NCBI GenBank assembly: GCA_004297845.1
Contig: SCSP01000029.1
Span: 1-41,121, forward strand
DNA: 41,121 nt
Reading direction: 5' to 3'
DNA from: Bacteroidota bacterium
GTDB lineage: Bacteria > Bacteroidota > Bacteroidia > Palsa-948
The notes below the pieces were generated by a model that saw nothing but the letters and a program-made list of their open reading frames with translations, had not been told where the DNA came from and did not search any database. Shown piece by piece: positions 4,764 through 41,121 of the stretch; position 1 is the first letter of the stretch, and each line of letters opens with the position of its first letter. The translations under genes were made by a program, and so were the position numbers.

Positions 4764-6014
4764 CTACTTTCTCATTTCCTTTATTTTCTCTTTCACTTTT
4801 TCAGATACAATTTCAATTTCCTCTTTCGTTGTATATTTTCCCAAAGAAAAACGAACGGAGGAATAGGCTATTTCATCCGACATTCCCATCGCTTTAAGAA
4901 CATGCGATGGTTCCGGAATGGCAGAGGTGCATGCCGATCCCGTTGAAACAGCAATATCAGGAAGTTTGGCAATGAGTGAGTCTGCTTTGATACCGTGAAA
5001 ACAAAGGTTGGTGACGTTAGGCAACCTCCCCCCCTTCCCCTCTCCCGAAAGAGAGGGAAGACCGTTTACAGAAACATTTCCCAGAGTTAAAAGAGATTTT
5101 TCAAGTTCATTACGGAGCTGTGAAATACGTATTGAATCTGTCTCCATTTCCTGAAGGGCTATCTCGCAGGCCTTGCCAAATCCTACAATCGCTGGCACAT
5201 TCAGTGTTCCTGAGCGGAGACCGCGTTCGTGCCCGCCTCCGTGGATGAGGGGGGATAAAGTCACACGCGGATCTTTTCTGCGGACATAGAGAGCTCCTGC
5301 TCCTTTTGGACCGTAAATTTTGTGGGAAGAAAAACATAATAAATCAATTCCTCCCCCCGCCTCACCCCCTGCCCCTCTCCTCGTGGAGAAGGGAGAAACA
5401 GCCACATTAATTTTTCCAACTGCTTGCGTGGCATCGCTCATGAAATAACATCCCTTCTCGTGTGCTATTTTCGAGATCTCTTCTATCGGCTGAATCACTC
5501 CTGTTTCATTATTAGCGTACATTATGCAAACCAAAAGAGTTGAGGAAGTGATCAAGTCACGGAGCTGATCAAGATCAATCAATCCTTCGCGATTAACCGG
5601 CAGGTAAGTAACTTTGGCTCCTTTTGTTTTTAAATATTTGCAAGTATCGAGAACGGCTTTGTGTTCGGTGATAAGGGTAATGATGTGGGTCTTCGCCCCA
5701 CCCCCTCGCCCCTCTCCTTGCCTCATCCCCCGCCCTTCTCCAAAGAAGAAAGGTGGAACAGCCGCTTCGTAAACTCCCTTGGCGGCAAGATTGATTGCCT
5801 CTGTTGCTCCGGAGGTAAAAATTATTTCATGAGGGGTTGCACCGATGAGTTTTGCCACACGTTCGCGAGCTTGCTCCACAGCAGCTTCTGCCACCCAGCC
5901 TGTAGCATGCGTTTTGCTTGCCGCATTCCCAAATTTTTCGGAAAAATAGGGAAGCATCGCTTCCAAAACCCTGGAATCAACGGGAGTCGTAGCATTATAA
6001 TCTAGGTATATCAT
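4764..6014 (-). CDS. Cysteine desulfurase (IscS/NifS family) with three repeat-encoded insertions
   Basis: This PLP enzyme releases sulfur from cysteine for Fe-S clusters and other sulfur compounds. The N-terminus MIYLDYNATTP and the TSGATEAINLA motif are classical. The PLP lysine lies in SSHKIYGPKGAGA (about residue 230), and the catalytic cysteine in STGSACTSAIPEPSHVL (about residue 362). The protein has 416 residues. It carries three low-complexity Gly/Arg/Pro-rich inserts at about residues 87-108, 207-222 and 319-330, each encoded by a GC-rich palindromic repeat. All lie at loops between conserved blocks (after GVYEAA, after KINVAVSP, and before RLPNVTNLCF), and all catalytic motifs are intact, so activity is likely kept. 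It converges with gcvH. Confidence 0.95.
   Translation of the reverse strand: MIYLDYNATTPVDSRVLEAMLPYFSEKFGNAASKTHATGWVAEAAVEQARERVAKLIGATPHEIIFTSGATEAINLAAKGVYEAAVPPFFFGEGRGMRQGEGRGGGAKTHIITLITEHKAVLDTCKYLKTKGAKVTYLPVNREGLIDLDQLRDLITSSTLLVCIMYANNETGVIQPIEEISKIAHEKGCYFMSDATQAVGKINVAVSPFSTRRGAGGEAGGGIDLLCFSSHKIYGPKGAGALYVRRKDPRVTLSPLIHGGGHERGLRSGTLNVPAIVGFGKACEIALQEMETDSIRISQLRNELEKSLLTLGNVSVNGLPSLSGEGKGGRLPNVTNLCFHGIKADSLIAKLPDIAVSTGSACTSAIPEPSHVLKAMGMSDEIAYSSVRFSLGKYTTKEEIEIVSEKVKEKIKEMRK
5025..5060. repeat. GC-rich palindromic element, third in-frame insert of the cysteine desulfurase
   Basis: The plus strand reads CCTCCCCCCCTTCCCC then TCTCCCGAAAGAGAGGGAAG, with CCTCTC pairing to GAGAGG. 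On the coding strand it gives LPSLSGEGKGGR, placed between VNGL and the conserved LPNVTN block. Confidence 0.8.
5351..5396. repeat. GC-rich palindromic element, second in-frame insert of the cysteine desulfurase
   Basis: The plus strand contains CCTCACCCCCTGCCCC, then TCTCCTCGTGGAGAAGGGAGA, the same flank-plus-hairpin layout as the copies at 13923 and 22441. On the coding strand it gives SPFSTRRGAGGEAGGG, before the conserved IDLLCFSSHK block. Confidence 0.8.
5695..5755. repeat. GC-rich palindromic element, first in-frame insert of the cysteine desulfurase, probably two copies
   Basis: Two adjacent half-copies can be seen on the plus strand: GCCCCACCCCCTCGCCCC then TCTCCTTGCC, and CTCATCCCCCGCCCTTCTCC then AAAGAAGAAAGG. 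Only the second keeps its hairpin. On the coding strand it gives PPFFFGEGRGMRQGEGRGGG, suggesting two rounds of insertion at one loop. Confidence 0.7.
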
Positions 6015-9505: not shown

Positions 9506-9578
9506 TTGGCCCGCCAGGTCTCGAACCTGGACTCTTCTGAACCAAAATCAGACGTGTTGCCAATTACACCACGGGCCA
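9506..9578 (-). tRNA. tRNA-Gln (anticodon TTG)
   Basis: The minus strand folds into a standard cloverleaf. The acceptor stem TGGCCCG pairs with CGGGCCA, the anticodon arm is TCTGA-TTTTGGT-TCAGA with anticodon TTG, and the T arm contains GGTTCGAGACC. The discriminator base is A and the 3' CCA is not encoded. It is transcribed toward the SiaC-like gene. Confidence 0.97.
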
Positions 9579-9590
9579 GGGAAGATGGCA

Positions 9591-9684
9591 GAAGGTATAG
9601 GGTATAAAGGTATAGGGGAAATACAACTGATCAATAATATTCTATATTCCCTATACCTCTATACCCTATTCCCTATACCTTTTT
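9591..9684. repeat. Inverted repeat of GGTATAG units between tRNA-Gln and its probable promoter
   Basis: The left arm (9591-9620) contains AGGTATAGGGTATAAAGG then TATAGGGGAA. The right arm (9646-9684) contains TATTCCCTATACCTCTATAC and CCTATTCCCTATACCTTT, which is complementary to the left arm plus one extra unit. The spacer is about 25 bp. It would form a long hairpin in the RNA upstream of the tRNA. Confidence 0.85.
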
Positions 9685-9781: not shown

Positions 9782-9846
9782 GGATTTAGGATTTAGGATT
9801 TAGGATTTAAAAATCCTTAATCCTAATTCCCTAATCCTAATTCCTA
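9782..9846. repeat. Inverted repeat of GGATTTA units abutting the DUF2723 start codon
   Basis: The left arm is four copies of GGATTTA (9782-9809). The right arm (9812-9846) is a run of AATCCTTAATCCTAATTCC and CTAATCCTAATTCC, complementary to the left arm with one unit diverged. The repeat ends 4 bp before the GTG start of the next gene. Confidence 0.85.
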
Positions 9847-13174: not shown

Positions 13175-13196
13175 AAAAAATGATGAATAATGAACA

Positions 13197-13270
13197 AGGA
13201 ATATCGAATAACGAAGTAAAGGCAAACACTTCAAACTTCAATATTCCTCGTTCGATACTCGATATTCCTT
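13197..13270. repeat. Inverted repeat of GGAATATCGA units upstream of the deacetylase
   Basis: The left arm AAGGAATATCGAATAACG (13197 onward) pairs with the right arm CGTTCGATACTCGATATTCC (ending 13268). A CTTCAAACTTCAATATTCC segment lies before the right arm. The element ends 20 bp before the start codon of the next gene. Confidence 0.75.
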
Positions 13271-13290
13271 AGGGTTTCAAATAACTTACG

Positions 13291-13959
13291 ATGTATTTCA
13301 TCCGTCCAACGCTGCTGATGAGAAAAATCTACTCATCAGCCATTTGGCGCGTTCCTACCAAAGAAAAAAAAATATTTCTCACCTTCGATGACGGACCCAT
13401 CCCTGAAATAACGCCTTGGGTTCTTGCACAGCTTAAAAAACACAATGCCAAAGCAACATTTTTCTGCATAGGCGCAAACATTGACAAACATTCTGATATT
13501 TTCAAACAAATTATTTTTGAGGGACATTCTATTGGAAACCACACCTACAATCACCTGAACGGATGGAAAATCAAAACGAAAGAATATTCAGAAAATGTAG
13601 GGCGCTGCAAAACAGCAATGGATAAAAACCATCAACCGTCAACCATCAACCATCAACCATTTTTTCGTCCTCCTTACGGTAAGATGAAACGCTCCCAATA
13701 CTCAATACTCAATACTCAATACTCAGTAATTATGTGGGATGTCCTCAGTGGCGACTTCGACCAAACTATTTCAGAAGAAAAATGCCTGAAGAATGTACTA
13801 ACTAAGACACGTGAAGGCTCCATCGTAGTTTTTCACGACAATCTAAAGGCAAAAAAGAATTTGTATTACGCACTCCCTAAAATTCTGGAATATTTTTCGG
13901 AGAAGGGCTTTGAATTTGACGGCCTCACCCCAACCCTCTCCAAAGGAGAGGGAGTGTAG
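13291..13959 (+). CDS. Polysaccharide deacetylase (NodB/CE4 family) carrying three repeat-derived insertions
   Basis: CE4 deacetylases are metal-dependent hydrolases that remove N- or O-acetyl groups from polysaccharides. The 222-residue protein has the TFDDGP motif (31-36), the metal-binding H-x3-H in NHTYNH (84-88) and the RPPYG motif (126-130), so the active site looks complete. Residues 113-123 (NHQPSTINHQP) and 135-146 (SQYSILNTQYSV) are encoded by DNA tandem repeats (ATCAACC and CAATACT units). The last residues, LTPTLSKGEGV, are encoded by a GC-rich palindromic element that also provides the stop codon. These inserts flank RPPYG. No signal peptide is obvious, though the N-terminus is mildly hydrophobic. 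It converges with an M16 peptidase gene. Confidence 0.92.
   Translation: MYFIRPTLLMRKIYSSAIWRVPTKEKKIFLTFDDGPIPEITPWVLAQLKKHNAKATFFCIGANIDKHSDIFKQIIFEGHSIGNHTYNHLNGWKIKTKEYSENVGRCKTAMDKNHQPSTINHQPFFRPPYGKMKRSQYSILNTQYSVIMWDVLSGDFDQTISEEKCLKNVLTKTREGSIVVFHDNLKAKKNLYYALPKILEYFSEKGFEFDGLTPTLSKGEGV
13627..13660. repeat. ATCAACC tandem repeat inside the deacetylase gene
   Basis: Five near-perfect copies of a 7-bp unit (AACCATC, one copy AACCGTC) run in the coding sequence and are translated as NHQPSTINHQP, immediately before the catalytic RPPYG block. Confidence 0.85.
13694..13727. repeat. CAATACT tandem repeat inside the deacetylase gene
   Basis: Four exact CAATACT units followed by a CAGTA remnant are translated as SQYSILNTQYSV, just after the RPPYG block and just before the conserved VIMWDV strand. 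Confidence 0.85.
13923..13955. repeat. GC-rich palindromic element at the deacetylase C-terminus
   Basis: CCTCACCCCAACCCTCTCC is followed by AAAGGAGAGGGAG, with a perfect CTCTCC/GGAGAG stem. It is translated as LTPTLSKGEG just before the stop. Its 31-bp core differs from the copy at 22451 by only two bases. Confidence 0.9.
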
Positions 13960-13969
13960 TGCTACAAGT

Positions 13970-14001
13970 CCTCCCCCTTGGGGAGGATTTAGGTGGGGCT
14001 T
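13970..14001. repeat. GC-rich palindromic element in reverse orientation, abutting the M16 stop codon
   Basis: CCTCCCCCTTGGGGAGG is followed by ATTTAGGTGGGGCTTT. The hairpin is CCTCCCC/GGGGAGG and the AGGTGGGG flank is the reverse complement of the CCTCACCCC-type flank, so it is an inverted neighbour of the copy at 13923. It lies directly against the stop codon of the convergent peptidase gene. Confidence 0.8.
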
Positions 14002-21725: not shown

Positions 21726-23069
21726 ATGAAAAAGGTTCTCATAATCACGTACTACTGGCCTCCCAGCGGAGGAGCGGGCGTTCAGCGCTGGCTCAAGTTT
21801 GTAAAATACCTGCGTGTATTTGGCTGGGAACCCGTTGTTTATACTCCGGAAAATCCGGAATCTCCGGCCATGGACGACTCCCTGCTGAAAGACATCCCGA
21901 AAGGCCTTACCGTTATCAAAACCCCGATCTGGGAGCCTTACAATCTGTACAAAGGATTCATTGGACAGAGGAAAGGTGAAAAAATAAATGCAGGATTTCT
22001 CACTGAGAAGAAAAAGCCGGGACTTGCAGAAAAAATATCCGTGTGGATACGGGGTAACTGGTTCATTCCAGATGCAAGGAAATTCTGGATAAAGCCCTCG
22101 GTTAACTTTTTATCTGAATATCTTTCAAATAATCCGGTAGATGCCATCGTATCTACCGGTCCTCCGCACAGCATGCATTTGATCGCACTTGCGCTGAGAA
22201 AGAAATTCAATATAAAATGGCTTGCCGATTTCCGTGACCCCTGGACTAATATTGATTTTTATGACAAACTCCTGCTCACAAAATCTTCAGACCACAAACA
22301 TAAAAAGCTCGAACACGAAGTTTTAAAAAACGCTGATGCGGTTCTAACTGTTGGGTGGCATATGGCGGATAGTTTCAAAAAAATAGTTAACCGGAAATAT
22401 GAGGTAATAACGAACGGATTTGACGAGGATGATTTTCAAACCTCACCCCACCTCACCCCGGCCCTCTCCAAAGGAGAGGGAGGAATCCCAGAGGAAAGGG
22501 GAGTGTTCAGCATCAGTCATATTGGGGCGATGAATGCTGACCGCAATCCCAAAATGCTCTGGGCTGCGCTAAATGAACTTCTGACAGAAAATGATGGGCT
22601 GAAAAAAGACCTGAAGATAAATTTCATAGGAAAGACTGATTATTCTGTGCTGAATGACCTTAATAAATGGCAACTCTCTCCTTATGTTACAAAAACAGAA
22701 TACCTGCCGCATACCAAAACCACCAAGGCAATGCAATCTTCTCAGGTGCTTTTGCTGGCTTTGAACAATACGCCTAACACGCTGGGCGTTATCTCCGGGA
22801 AACTGTTTGAATACATTGCCGCAAAACGCCCCATCCTGTCCATCGGAAAAGAGAACGGAGATGCGGCAAGAATCATCAAAGAGACAGGAGCAGGAACGAT
22901 CTGTGATTTTGAGGATAAAACCAAAATCAAGACGGAGATCAGCAGGTTCTACGAGTTGTTCAAACAAAAAAAGCTGAGTATTACTTTGGCAGATACTTCT
23001 GCATACTCCAGAAGAAATCAGACGGAGGCATTAGCTGGTATCCTGAACCATCTGACAGAAAAAAAATAA
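21726..23069 (+). CDS. Glycosyltransferase (GT4-like) with a repeat-derived insertion
   Basis: The 447-residue protein starts MKKVLIITYYWPPSGGAGVQ, a common opening of Bacteroidota glycosyltransferases that use a GT-B fold. The N-terminal half has WLADFRDPW, and the C-terminal half has GVISGKLFEYIAAKRPILSIG, the donor-sugar binding region. Residues about 239-259 (SPHLTPALSKGEGGIPEERG) are encoded by the GC-rich palindrome at 22441-22504 and lie at the hinge between the two domains. The palindrome replaces a loop and leaves the frame open. It follows the YfhO gene and converges with the T9SS protein gene, with a shared palindrome between them. Confidence 0.9.
   Translation: MKKVLIITYYWPPSGGAGVQRWLKFVKYLRVFGWEPVVYTPENPESPAMDDSLLKDIPKGLTVIKTPIWEPYNLYKGFIGQRKGEKINAGFLTEKKKPGLAEKISVWIRGNWFIPDARKFWIKPSVNFLSEYLSNNPVDAIVSTGPPHSMHLIALALRKKFNIKWLADFRDPWTNIDFYDKLLLTKSSDHKHKKLEHEVLKNADAVLTVGWHMADSFKKIVNRKYEVITNGFDEDDFQTSPHLTPALSKGEGGIPEERGVFSISHIGAMNADRNPKMLWAALNELLTENDGLKKDLKINFIGKTDYSVLNDLNKWQLSPYVTKTEYLPHTKTTKAMQSSQVLLLALNNTPNTLGVISGKLFEYIAAKRPILSIGKENGDAARIIKETGAGTICDFEDKTKIKTEISRFYELFKQKKLSITLADTSAYSRRNQTEALAGILNHLTEKK
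22441..22504. repeat. GC-rich palindromic element inside the glycosyltransferase gene
   Basis: A doubled flank (CCTCACCCCA then CCTCACCCCG) precedes GCCCTCTCCAAAGGAGAGGG. The core differs from the copy at 13926-13955 at two bases and is read in the same frame (LTPALSKGEG). A further fragment, GAGGAAAGGGGAG, follows. Confidence 0.9.
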
Positions 23070-38011: not shown

Positions 38012-38060
38012 TATGGTTAATGGCTAATGGAAAGGCTACCTTAACCATTAAACATTAGCC
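38012..38060. repeat. Inverted repeat of ATGGTTA/TTAACCAT units between two genes
   Basis: The left arm TATGGTTAATGGCTAATGG (38012-38030) pairs with the right arm CCTTAACCATTAAACATTAG (38039-38058). A GGTATAAAGGTA stretch like the unit at 9591 precedes it at 37985-37996. It separates the response regulator from yraN. Confidence 0.75.
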
Positions 38061-38432: not shown

Positions 38433-38510
38433 TTACAAATTACGAATTTTTAACGAATATACGAATAGAGCCGCAAAAGTATTCGTAATTCGGTTGATTC
38501 GTAATTCGTA
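38433..38510. repeat. Inverted repeat of ACGAAT-type units upstream of yraN
   Basis: The left arm TTACAAATTACGAATTTT then TAACGAATATACGAAT (38433-38466) faces the right arm ATTCGTAATTCGGTTGATTC then GTAATTCGTA (38481-38510). The unit order is nearly the same as in the repeat at 6034-6133, 32 kb away. Confidence 0.82.
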
Positions 38511-38561
38511 GATTCTGGTATGATTGTTGGATTGTCCTCGTATGTGTCTCCAAAAAAAGAT

Positions 38562-40163: not shown

Positions 40164-40200
40164 AACAGATTGCAAATTGCAGATTACAGATTGCAGATTT
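40164..40200. repeat. GCAGATT tandem repeat in the metG leader
   Basis: AACAGATTGCAAATTGCAG is followed by ATTACAGATTGCAGATTTG, four to five copies of a GCAGATT/ACAGATT unit without a complementary arm. A CTTTAAACTTTGAACTTC stretch follows and runs into the start codon. Confidence 0.7.
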
Positions 40201-40220
40201 GTTACTAACAGCTTTAAACT

Positions 40221-41121
40221 TTGAACTTCAAACGCCATCTCATAACTGCTGCCCTGCCCTACGCCAACGGACCAATTCATATCGGGCATCTGGCGGGTTG
40301 CTATTTGCCGGCAGATATTTACGTACGCTACCTGCGCTCCAAAGGCGAAGATGTAAAGTTCATCTGTGGCTCGGATGAGCACGGGGTTCCTATTACGATC
40401 AAAGCAAAGAACGAAGGCATAACACCTCAACAGGTGGTGGATAAATACCACAAGATGATGGGCGATTCGTTCAAGGAATTCGGAATCTCTTTCGATATAT
40501 ATTCCCGCACTTCGGGCAAAGCGCATCACGAAACGGCTTCTTATTTTTTCAAAACACTTTACGATAAAAAGGTTTTCACGGAAGAGATCACCGAGCAGTA
40601 TTTTGACGAGAAAGCAAATCAGTTTCTGGCTGACCGGTATATTGTAGGAACCTGCCCGAAATGCGCCAACGAAAGCGCATACGGAGACCAATGCGAAAAA
40701 TGCGGTTCAACATTGAGTCCTACAGAACTGATCAACCCAAAATCCACTTTATCAGGAGAAAAACCTGTTTTGAGAAAAACAAAGAACTGGTTCCTGCCTT
40801 TGGATACAATGCAGCCTCGGATCGAAAAATATATTGAATCGCACAAAGACTGGAAAGTGAATGTGTACGGACAATGCAAATCCTGGCTCGACCAGAAACT
40901 GCAACCCCGGGCCATGACCCGTGATCTGAACTGGGGCGTGAAAGTGCCGGTGAAAGACGCGGAAGGAAAGGTATTGTATGTGTGGTTTGATGCACCTATC
41001 GGATACATATCGGCCACCAAAGAACTATTCAATCAGGCCCCATCCCGGCCTTCCCCAAAGGGGAAGGAGATGCAGGCGACTGAGGAGGGATGGGAGTTGT
41101 ACTGGAAAAATAAAGATACCC
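40221..41121 (+). CDS. metG: Methionyl-tRNA synthetase (MetG), 5' part, with a repeat-derived insertion
   Basis: MetG charges tRNA-Met. The sequence reads [18 protein letters not shown], then the HIGH signature in [17 protein letters not shown], the zinc-knuckle CPKC...CEKC (from [10 protein letters not shown] and QCEKCGSTL) and [16 protein letters not shown]. The product is cut by the window edge after 300 codons. The KMSKS motif lies beyond. The only start candidate is TTG at 40221, because TAA occurs 6 bp upstream in frame and the first in-frame ATG lies far inside the HIGH domain. The segment [20 protein letters not shown] (about 273 onward) is a GC-rich palindrome insertion in a loop before WELYWKNKD. 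Confidence 0.94.
41038..41092. repeat. GC-rich palindromic element inside metG
   Basis: CCCCATCCCGGCCTTCCCC is followed by AAAGGGGAAGGAG, a variant of the element at 22451 (CACCCCGGCCCTCTCC, AAAGGAGAGGGAG). The reading frame differs by one position from that copy, so [10 protein letters not shown] replaces LTPALSKGEG. Confidence 0.75.

Follow-up and report, generated by a model that had tools for sequence, protein, structure and literature searches.

How a gene for an apparently ordinary enzyme comes to hold several kinds of short repeat inside its coding sequence is the question raised by a polysaccharide deacetylase gene in a 41,121-nucleotide stretch of a Bacteroidota genome (hereafter the window; its genome is G000). 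A sequence-only reading had proposed that ATCAACC and CAATACT tandem repeats stand on either side of the RPPYG motif and that the gene ends in a GC-rich palindrome, and had taken these as three unrelated repeat classes seeded by a genome-wide process and not by a single mobile family. Both arrays were recovered by TRF on either side of the motif, the first as the rotated unit AACCATC (Table 1). A Pfam domain search matched the product to PF01522 (Polysacc_deac_1; E = 5.2e-30, 104 bits), and the closest solved structures are peptidoglycan GlcNAc deacetylases (E = 3e-30). All of the expected motifs were found (TFDDGP, HxxxxH, RPPYG, WDVLSGDFD and VVFHD), with D33/D34, H79, H84, RPP.G and H182 invariant in the homolog alignment, and AlphaFold models the protein with high confidence (pLDDT 90). 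Domain and catalytic motifs place the product in family CE4. Judged by its sequence, the gene appears to encode a functional, ordinary CE4 enzyme that carries two period-7 arrays and one REP-like GC palindrome. Orthologs at approximately 65-75% identity are present in four genomes of the same genus, with more distant ones in other families.

Table 1. Repeats in and around the deacetylase gene, in window coordinates.
Feature	Position	Strand	Basis or remark
CE4 polysaccharide deacetylase gene	13291..13959	+	222-aa ORF, intact
Site 1 heptad array AACCATC x4.9, residues 113-124	13627..13660	+	TRF, 92% match
Site 2 heptad array CAATACT x4.3, residues 136-145	13696..13725	+	TRF, 100% match
GC-rich palindrome with edges (repeat family D3)	13923..13959	+	last ~10 codons of deacetylase
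Second GC palindrome CCTCCCCCTTGGGGAGG	13970..13986	+	sequence; just 3' of deacetylase stop
Heptad hairpin, GAAxxxx vs TTCxxxx words (I15)	13179..13272		between DUF2723 gene and CE4 gene
Heptad hairpin GGATTTA x4 / TAATCCT	9782..9844		directly before DUF2723 start

The first array (site 1) is a loop insertion before RPPYG whose word differs in each of five species. It forms a loop in the AlphaFold model, where pLDDT drops below 50 at residues 116-119, and many homologs from outside the genus (L031-L033, for example) have no insert at this position. Alignment of the orthologs gave AACCATC in the window genome, CCGCTTA in G003 and AGGAAAC in G005, with imperfect CCAAATT/CCAAGTA words in G006 and a hairpin-like octad of the GCAGATGT type in G004. 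The encoded peptides are unrelated from species to species, and the NHQPSTINHQP of the window gene is not conserved in repeat-free homologs. CCGCTTA arrays in G003, and near-exact AGGAAAC arrays in G005, were found in the deacetylase gene only. Such private words suggest that the arrays are made locally, and words found once per genome argue for local making over import. A single mobile family of fixed sequence is ruled out by these private words, because the site 1 word changes across all five species.

The second array (site 2) is an old, in-frame, DNA-level array whose units are alike within a species and differ between species. Its word is CAATACT in the window genome, CAATTCT in G003 and G005, a mixture of the two in G006 and CAGTACT in G004; beyond the genus it is CTCAGAT in G011, from another family, and CTCAAAT in G029, from a third. 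Across these three families the arrays keep an identical codon register and a length equal to that of repeat-free homologs, the segment being longer in two members of family f6 (G093 and G057). As the length matches homologs without repeats, site 2 is not an insertion. In the model it forms part of a confident helix (134-140) and strand (145-147). We weighed whether the repeats are simply a by-product of conserved protein sequence, through chance or protein selection. Of the two segments whose conservation would have counted against the original reading, SQYSILNTQYSV is partly conserved among homologs: Q136 is nearly invariant (at least 90%), S135, Y144 and S145 are majority residues, SQxxxLxxxYS is the family consensus, and most homologs have a segment of equal length. 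We recoded the same peptide with synonymous codons at local codon usage in 5000 draws and compared lag-7 identity. The observed value was never equalled for the five same-genus species and rarely equalled for G011 and G029, with most repeat-free homologs at background. Because the 7-nt periodicity exceeds that of synonymous recodings of its own peptide, site 2 is nonetheless a DNA-level array, and protein constraint is ruled out as its cause; with the site 1 peptides also unrelated between species, we give the by-product explanation almost no credence for the gene as a whole. In a probable T9SS-type protein of the window genome (L105:2242-2260, contig C262), a separate in-frame CTCAATA array encodes SQYSILK, a peptide nearly identical to that of the deacetylase.

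A second explanation specific to this gene is that site 2, and site 1 with it, is a contingency locus at which 7-nt slippage switches the deacetylase on and off by frame. Gain or loss of one 7-nt unit must shift the reading frame, and arrays stand at the same sites in five species. However, all the orthologs that we read are in frame, the arrays are short (3-5 units), the site 2 length is constant among genus members and frame-off alleles are unseen, with one genome available per species. We consider switching of this kind very unlikely.

The two arrays belong to a much larger population. Three exact period-7 runs occur in the window, compared with 0.05 expected from third-order Markov shuffles. 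In 1.14 Mb sampled from G006 we counted 114 period-7 arrays, as opposed to 13, 24 and 4 of periods 6, 8 and 9; the corresponding numbers for 351 kb of the window genome were 33 versus 1, 0 and 1, while the third-order Markov null gave 0 period-7 arrays. Restricting the latter sample to the window and contigs not picked for a repeat gave 9 arrays in 131 kb. These densities derive from sampled stretches and not from genomes read whole, and correspond to about one array per 10-15 kb in the window genome and, extrapolated from the 33 and 114 arrays, some 250-350 per genome; the ORF calls used throughout are simple ones. The arrays fall into 20 word classes among the 33 and 71 among the 114, of which 8 are common to both genomes (1.2 expected), AACCATC/AACCATT being the commonest in each. 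Copy number of the two deacetylase units was also measured across the window genome: allowing up to 2 mismatches, three-unit CAATACT arrays were found at 4 loci and three-unit ATCAACC arrays at 10, with 0 for the reversed controls. The peptide of the ATCAACC array has matches in Verrucomicrobia, Kiritimatiellae and one Flavobacteriaceae record. Period-7 arrays are thus a genome-wide class of many words, specific to period 7 and weakly to period 8. Since the deacetylase 7-mers are two of these many words, they constitute one repeat class, and the division into three unrelated classes does not survive; only the palindrome stands apart.

The neighbourhood of the gene contains further members. The hairpin in the gap between the DUF2723 and CE4 genes is replaced in sister genomes by a CCAAATT/CTTGGAA hairpin (G004), a GC palindrome (G005) or nothing (G006), and the hairpin before DUF2723 has drifted words in G004 and G005 and is missing from G003 and G006. 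Weak heptad arrays or hairpins were also seen in the window at 9592-9679, 38013-38057, 38481-38515 and 40166-40233 (words GGTATAG/TATACCC, ATGGTTA/TTAACCA, ATTCGTA and CAGATTG/CTTTAAA). The sole Rfam match in the window is a tRNA gene at 9506-9578 on the minus strand.

The GC palindrome is a second, REP-like repeat class, separate from the heptads. Its core CCCTCTCCAAAGGAGAGGG lies at 13934-13952, and the last ~10 codons of the deacetylase (TPTLSKGEGV) derive from the palindrome and its edges; comparison of the native C-terminus in relatives shows the sister-species proteins ending at about FxxL. The gene therefore does end in the palindrome as had been read, but the stop codon is not part of it: the TAG (13957-13959) lies 4 bases past the core. 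Matches number 79 in the window genome (43 + 36, some places counted on both strands; about 70 places), 56 in G005, 8 in G006 and 2 in G001, with 0 in the reversed control. Y1_Tnp genes number 8 in the window genome, and G001, which has hardly any copies of the palindrome, has 0. The palindrome thus resembles REP elements with RAYT (Y1) transposases in being short, GC-rich and dispersed in tens of copies in a genome with Y1_Tnp genes, and differs from them in that the deacetylase-type palindrome flanked the Y1 gene at 0 of the 12 Y1 loci read. Y1 (RAYT) transposases were also considered as drivers of the heptads and rejected, as arrays flank only 1 of 11 Y1 loci and the Y1 inverted repeats are not heptad. 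In G004, the deacetylase gene (L027:1501-2196) has an in-frame GC palindrome near its N-terminus (LPSLRGGTGRGS), so that in this species the gene acquired one at another position. Elsewhere in the window, the cysteine desulfurase gene (4764-6014, minus strand) has in-frame glycine-rich segments (FFGEGRGMRQGEGRGGG, FSTRRGAGGEAGGG and LPSLSGEGKGGR) that coincide with GC palindromes of the same kind inside the CDS (5024, 5359, 5695 and 5719), and a palindrome with 94% identity to that of the deacetylase lies within a glycosyltransferase ORF at 22451-22482 (PHLTPALSKGEGG).

Genes of the PF05635 family (23S_rRNA_IVP, or S23) provided a connection between the heptads and a known element. They number 9-23 per genome in the relatives searched, with 2 in G001, and of 198 genomes of the class 157 have them. 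For 70 S23 loci, drawn from the genus and from two further families, 170 bp were read on either side; at 38 there were period-7 arrays on at least one side and at 17 on both. Period 8 gave 20 and 8 by the same count, and periods 5, 6, 9 and 10 gave 2, 6, 1 and 2. Isolated ORFs of the same genus had period-7 arrays at 18 of 134 and on both sides at 4 of 134 (Fisher p = 1.7e-9 and 5e-6 respectively, values that ignore kinship and treat loci of the same genome, which are not independent, as if they were). Raising the array threshold from 8 to 10 or 12 left the direction of the association unchanged, and 15 of 28 S23 loci in other families of the class had period-7 arrays. The arms match each other within an element: among 22 two-sided loci, complementarity was 0.69 for the own pair and 0.24 for swapped pairs, 19 of the 22 own pairs exceeding the 95th percentile of the swapped ones, so that these two-sided PF05635 loci of the lineage have an S23 ORF between complementary arms. 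Upstream arms are G-rich at 35 of 39 and downstream arms C-rich at 31 of 39. Other than for this polarity, high G/C asymmetry of array words was dropped as evidence, because any repeated 7-mer tends to be skewed. Loops of hairpin arrays measure 0-60 bp (n = 15) or approximately 390-400 bp (n = 2, one of them around an S23 gene), with none of 61-300 bp.

In Coxiella burnetii, tandem GACAGAT heptamers of strain-variable copy number are reported to lie just upstream of the S23 ORF of the intervening sequence (IVS) (PMC4990558). Among the papers searched, none generalises this adjacency. Together with the association at S23 flanks and the complementarity of own arms, the Coxiella heptads suggest that heptad arrays are what the stems of IVS-like S23 elements are built from, with far more of them present as short hairpins or solitary arrays. 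Arrays adjoining an S23 gene number only about 2-20 per genome, and for approximately 90% of arrays no complementary partner was detectable within 900 bp. The deacetylase arrays likewise have no complementary partner arm within 900 bp, and the window contig (C409) has no PF05635 match. With its 2 S23 genes and no Y1 transposase, G001 yet has 18 arrays in 293 kb; the number of S23 genes is consequently unsupported as a determinant of array density, and S23 either does not make the arrays or can do so from few copies. The S23 locus L274, from another family, has long G-rich TAGTGGG arrays on both sides in direct and not inverted orientation. The word of an S23-less hairpin in the window genome, TAGACAA ... 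TGTCTAC (L078:16026-16122), recurs in both arms of a G002 S23 element (L192).

Our preferred explanation, which we hold to be probable, is that the arrays form one genome-wide class, seeded and homogenised locally in 7-nt steps, and that the deacetylase arrays are solitary relatives of S23-element stems. Arrays would be seeded and kept uniform by a copying process stepping in 7 nt, and not imported as fixed sequences; the step could be slippage, or one hairpin arm templating the other. In coding DNA, arrays would survive only in loops, at ends, or in segments tolerant in both frame and fold, and those of the deacetylase would be S23-less relatives of IVS-like stems. Local making followed by homogenisation would explain private words at fixed positions, and copying templated by the opposite arm would account for arms that match. 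The word is likewise exchanged in another gene, where TTGATGG of the window genome corresponds in position, and almost in length, to GATTTGG of G006, and some T9SS C-terminal domain paralogs differ in the array that one and the same loop carries. Words are thus not, as a rule, imported in fixed form, though CAATTCT recurs at several loci in G003. Against local making alone, the sharing of words across genomes and phyla above chance (the 8 classes noted above) is not predicted. The preferred explanation is also weakened by the many arrays without a partner, the small number beside S23 genes, the arrays of G001 and the solitary state of the two deacetylase arrays. The genome-wide seeding originally proposed thus stands for the many-word 7-bp arrays, without a single mobile family. 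It does not extend to one process behind all three repeats: with the two 7-mers in one class and the palindrome alone in another, one process need not make them all.

The S23 data could also be read as mobility, the arrays being decayed or non-autonomous, MITE-like copies of a mobile S23/IVS-like hairpin element inserted in the gene and moved by S23 or a partner. S23 genes between complementary heptad arms, loop sizes in two groups and a fixed arm polarity fit this, as do two places in S23 arms of G002 and G005 whose words are near the site 2 word CTCAATT. On the other hand, each S23 element has its own word, unlike the ends that a transposase must recognise, empty sites inspected by eye had no target-site duplication, arrays persist in G001 despite its 2 S23 genes, and the deacetylase arrays are solitary. 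We regard insertion of such an element as doubtful. Under simple slippage during replication, with a polymerase footprint of 7 nt as suggested by Mrazek et al. (cited in PMC4679880 and PMC4692102), S23 genes would merely land in or tolerate such DNA. Slippage of this kind accommodates period 7 whatever the word, private words and arrays without many S23 genes, yet leaves unexplained why arms ~400 bp apart match each other and no other element, why arm polarity is fixed and why the density of period-7 arrays is high in this lineage; slippage on its own is a real possibility, though we lean against it. Going beyond our preferred explanation of local 7-nt copying, one may speculate that the S23 four-helix-bundle proteins are part of a machine that writes 7-nt-periodic DNA, with period set and word free, and that this machine produced the heptameric repeats found in Bacteroidota and perhaps also those in Xanthomonas, Nostoc and Coxiella; we think this improbable at present.

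To our knowledge, the over-abundance of heptamers in bacteria, known since 2007, has no accepted cause, and we know of no function for the S23/IVP proteins since their discovery in 23S rRNA intervening sequences. The statistical link between heptads and S23, with arms matching within and differing between elements, opens both of these old questions to testing. The deacetylase gene suits such tests well: in five species the same two positions of its coding sequence hold heptad-type repeats, and the site 1 words differ.

Known heptamer SSRs include GGGAATC in Xanthomonas and GGGGA(C/T)T in Nostoc (PMC4692102) and TAACTGA in Beggiatoaceae and a few Bacteroidetes (PMC4679880), and PMC4692102 found no overall association of such repeats with insertion sequences or transposable elements. 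The arrays described here share with these, and with cyanobacterial STRR sequences, a clear excess of 7-nt units over other sizes, degenerate units, occasional inverted pairs and close species differing in sequence at the same intergenic place. They differ in that the G006 and G000 samples have no one or few characteristic words, the window genome and its sister having dozens with none dominant, and in the reoccupation of the same coding sites by different words and the statistical S23/IVP link. From the 23S rRNA IVS of Coxiella burnetii the lineage departs in having many S23 copies per genome with element-specific heptad or octad arms, and in deacetylase arrays that lack both S23 and a partner arm; what the S23 loci have in common with that IVS is an S23 ORF in the loop, a stem of terminal inverted repeats and heptamers beside the ORF.
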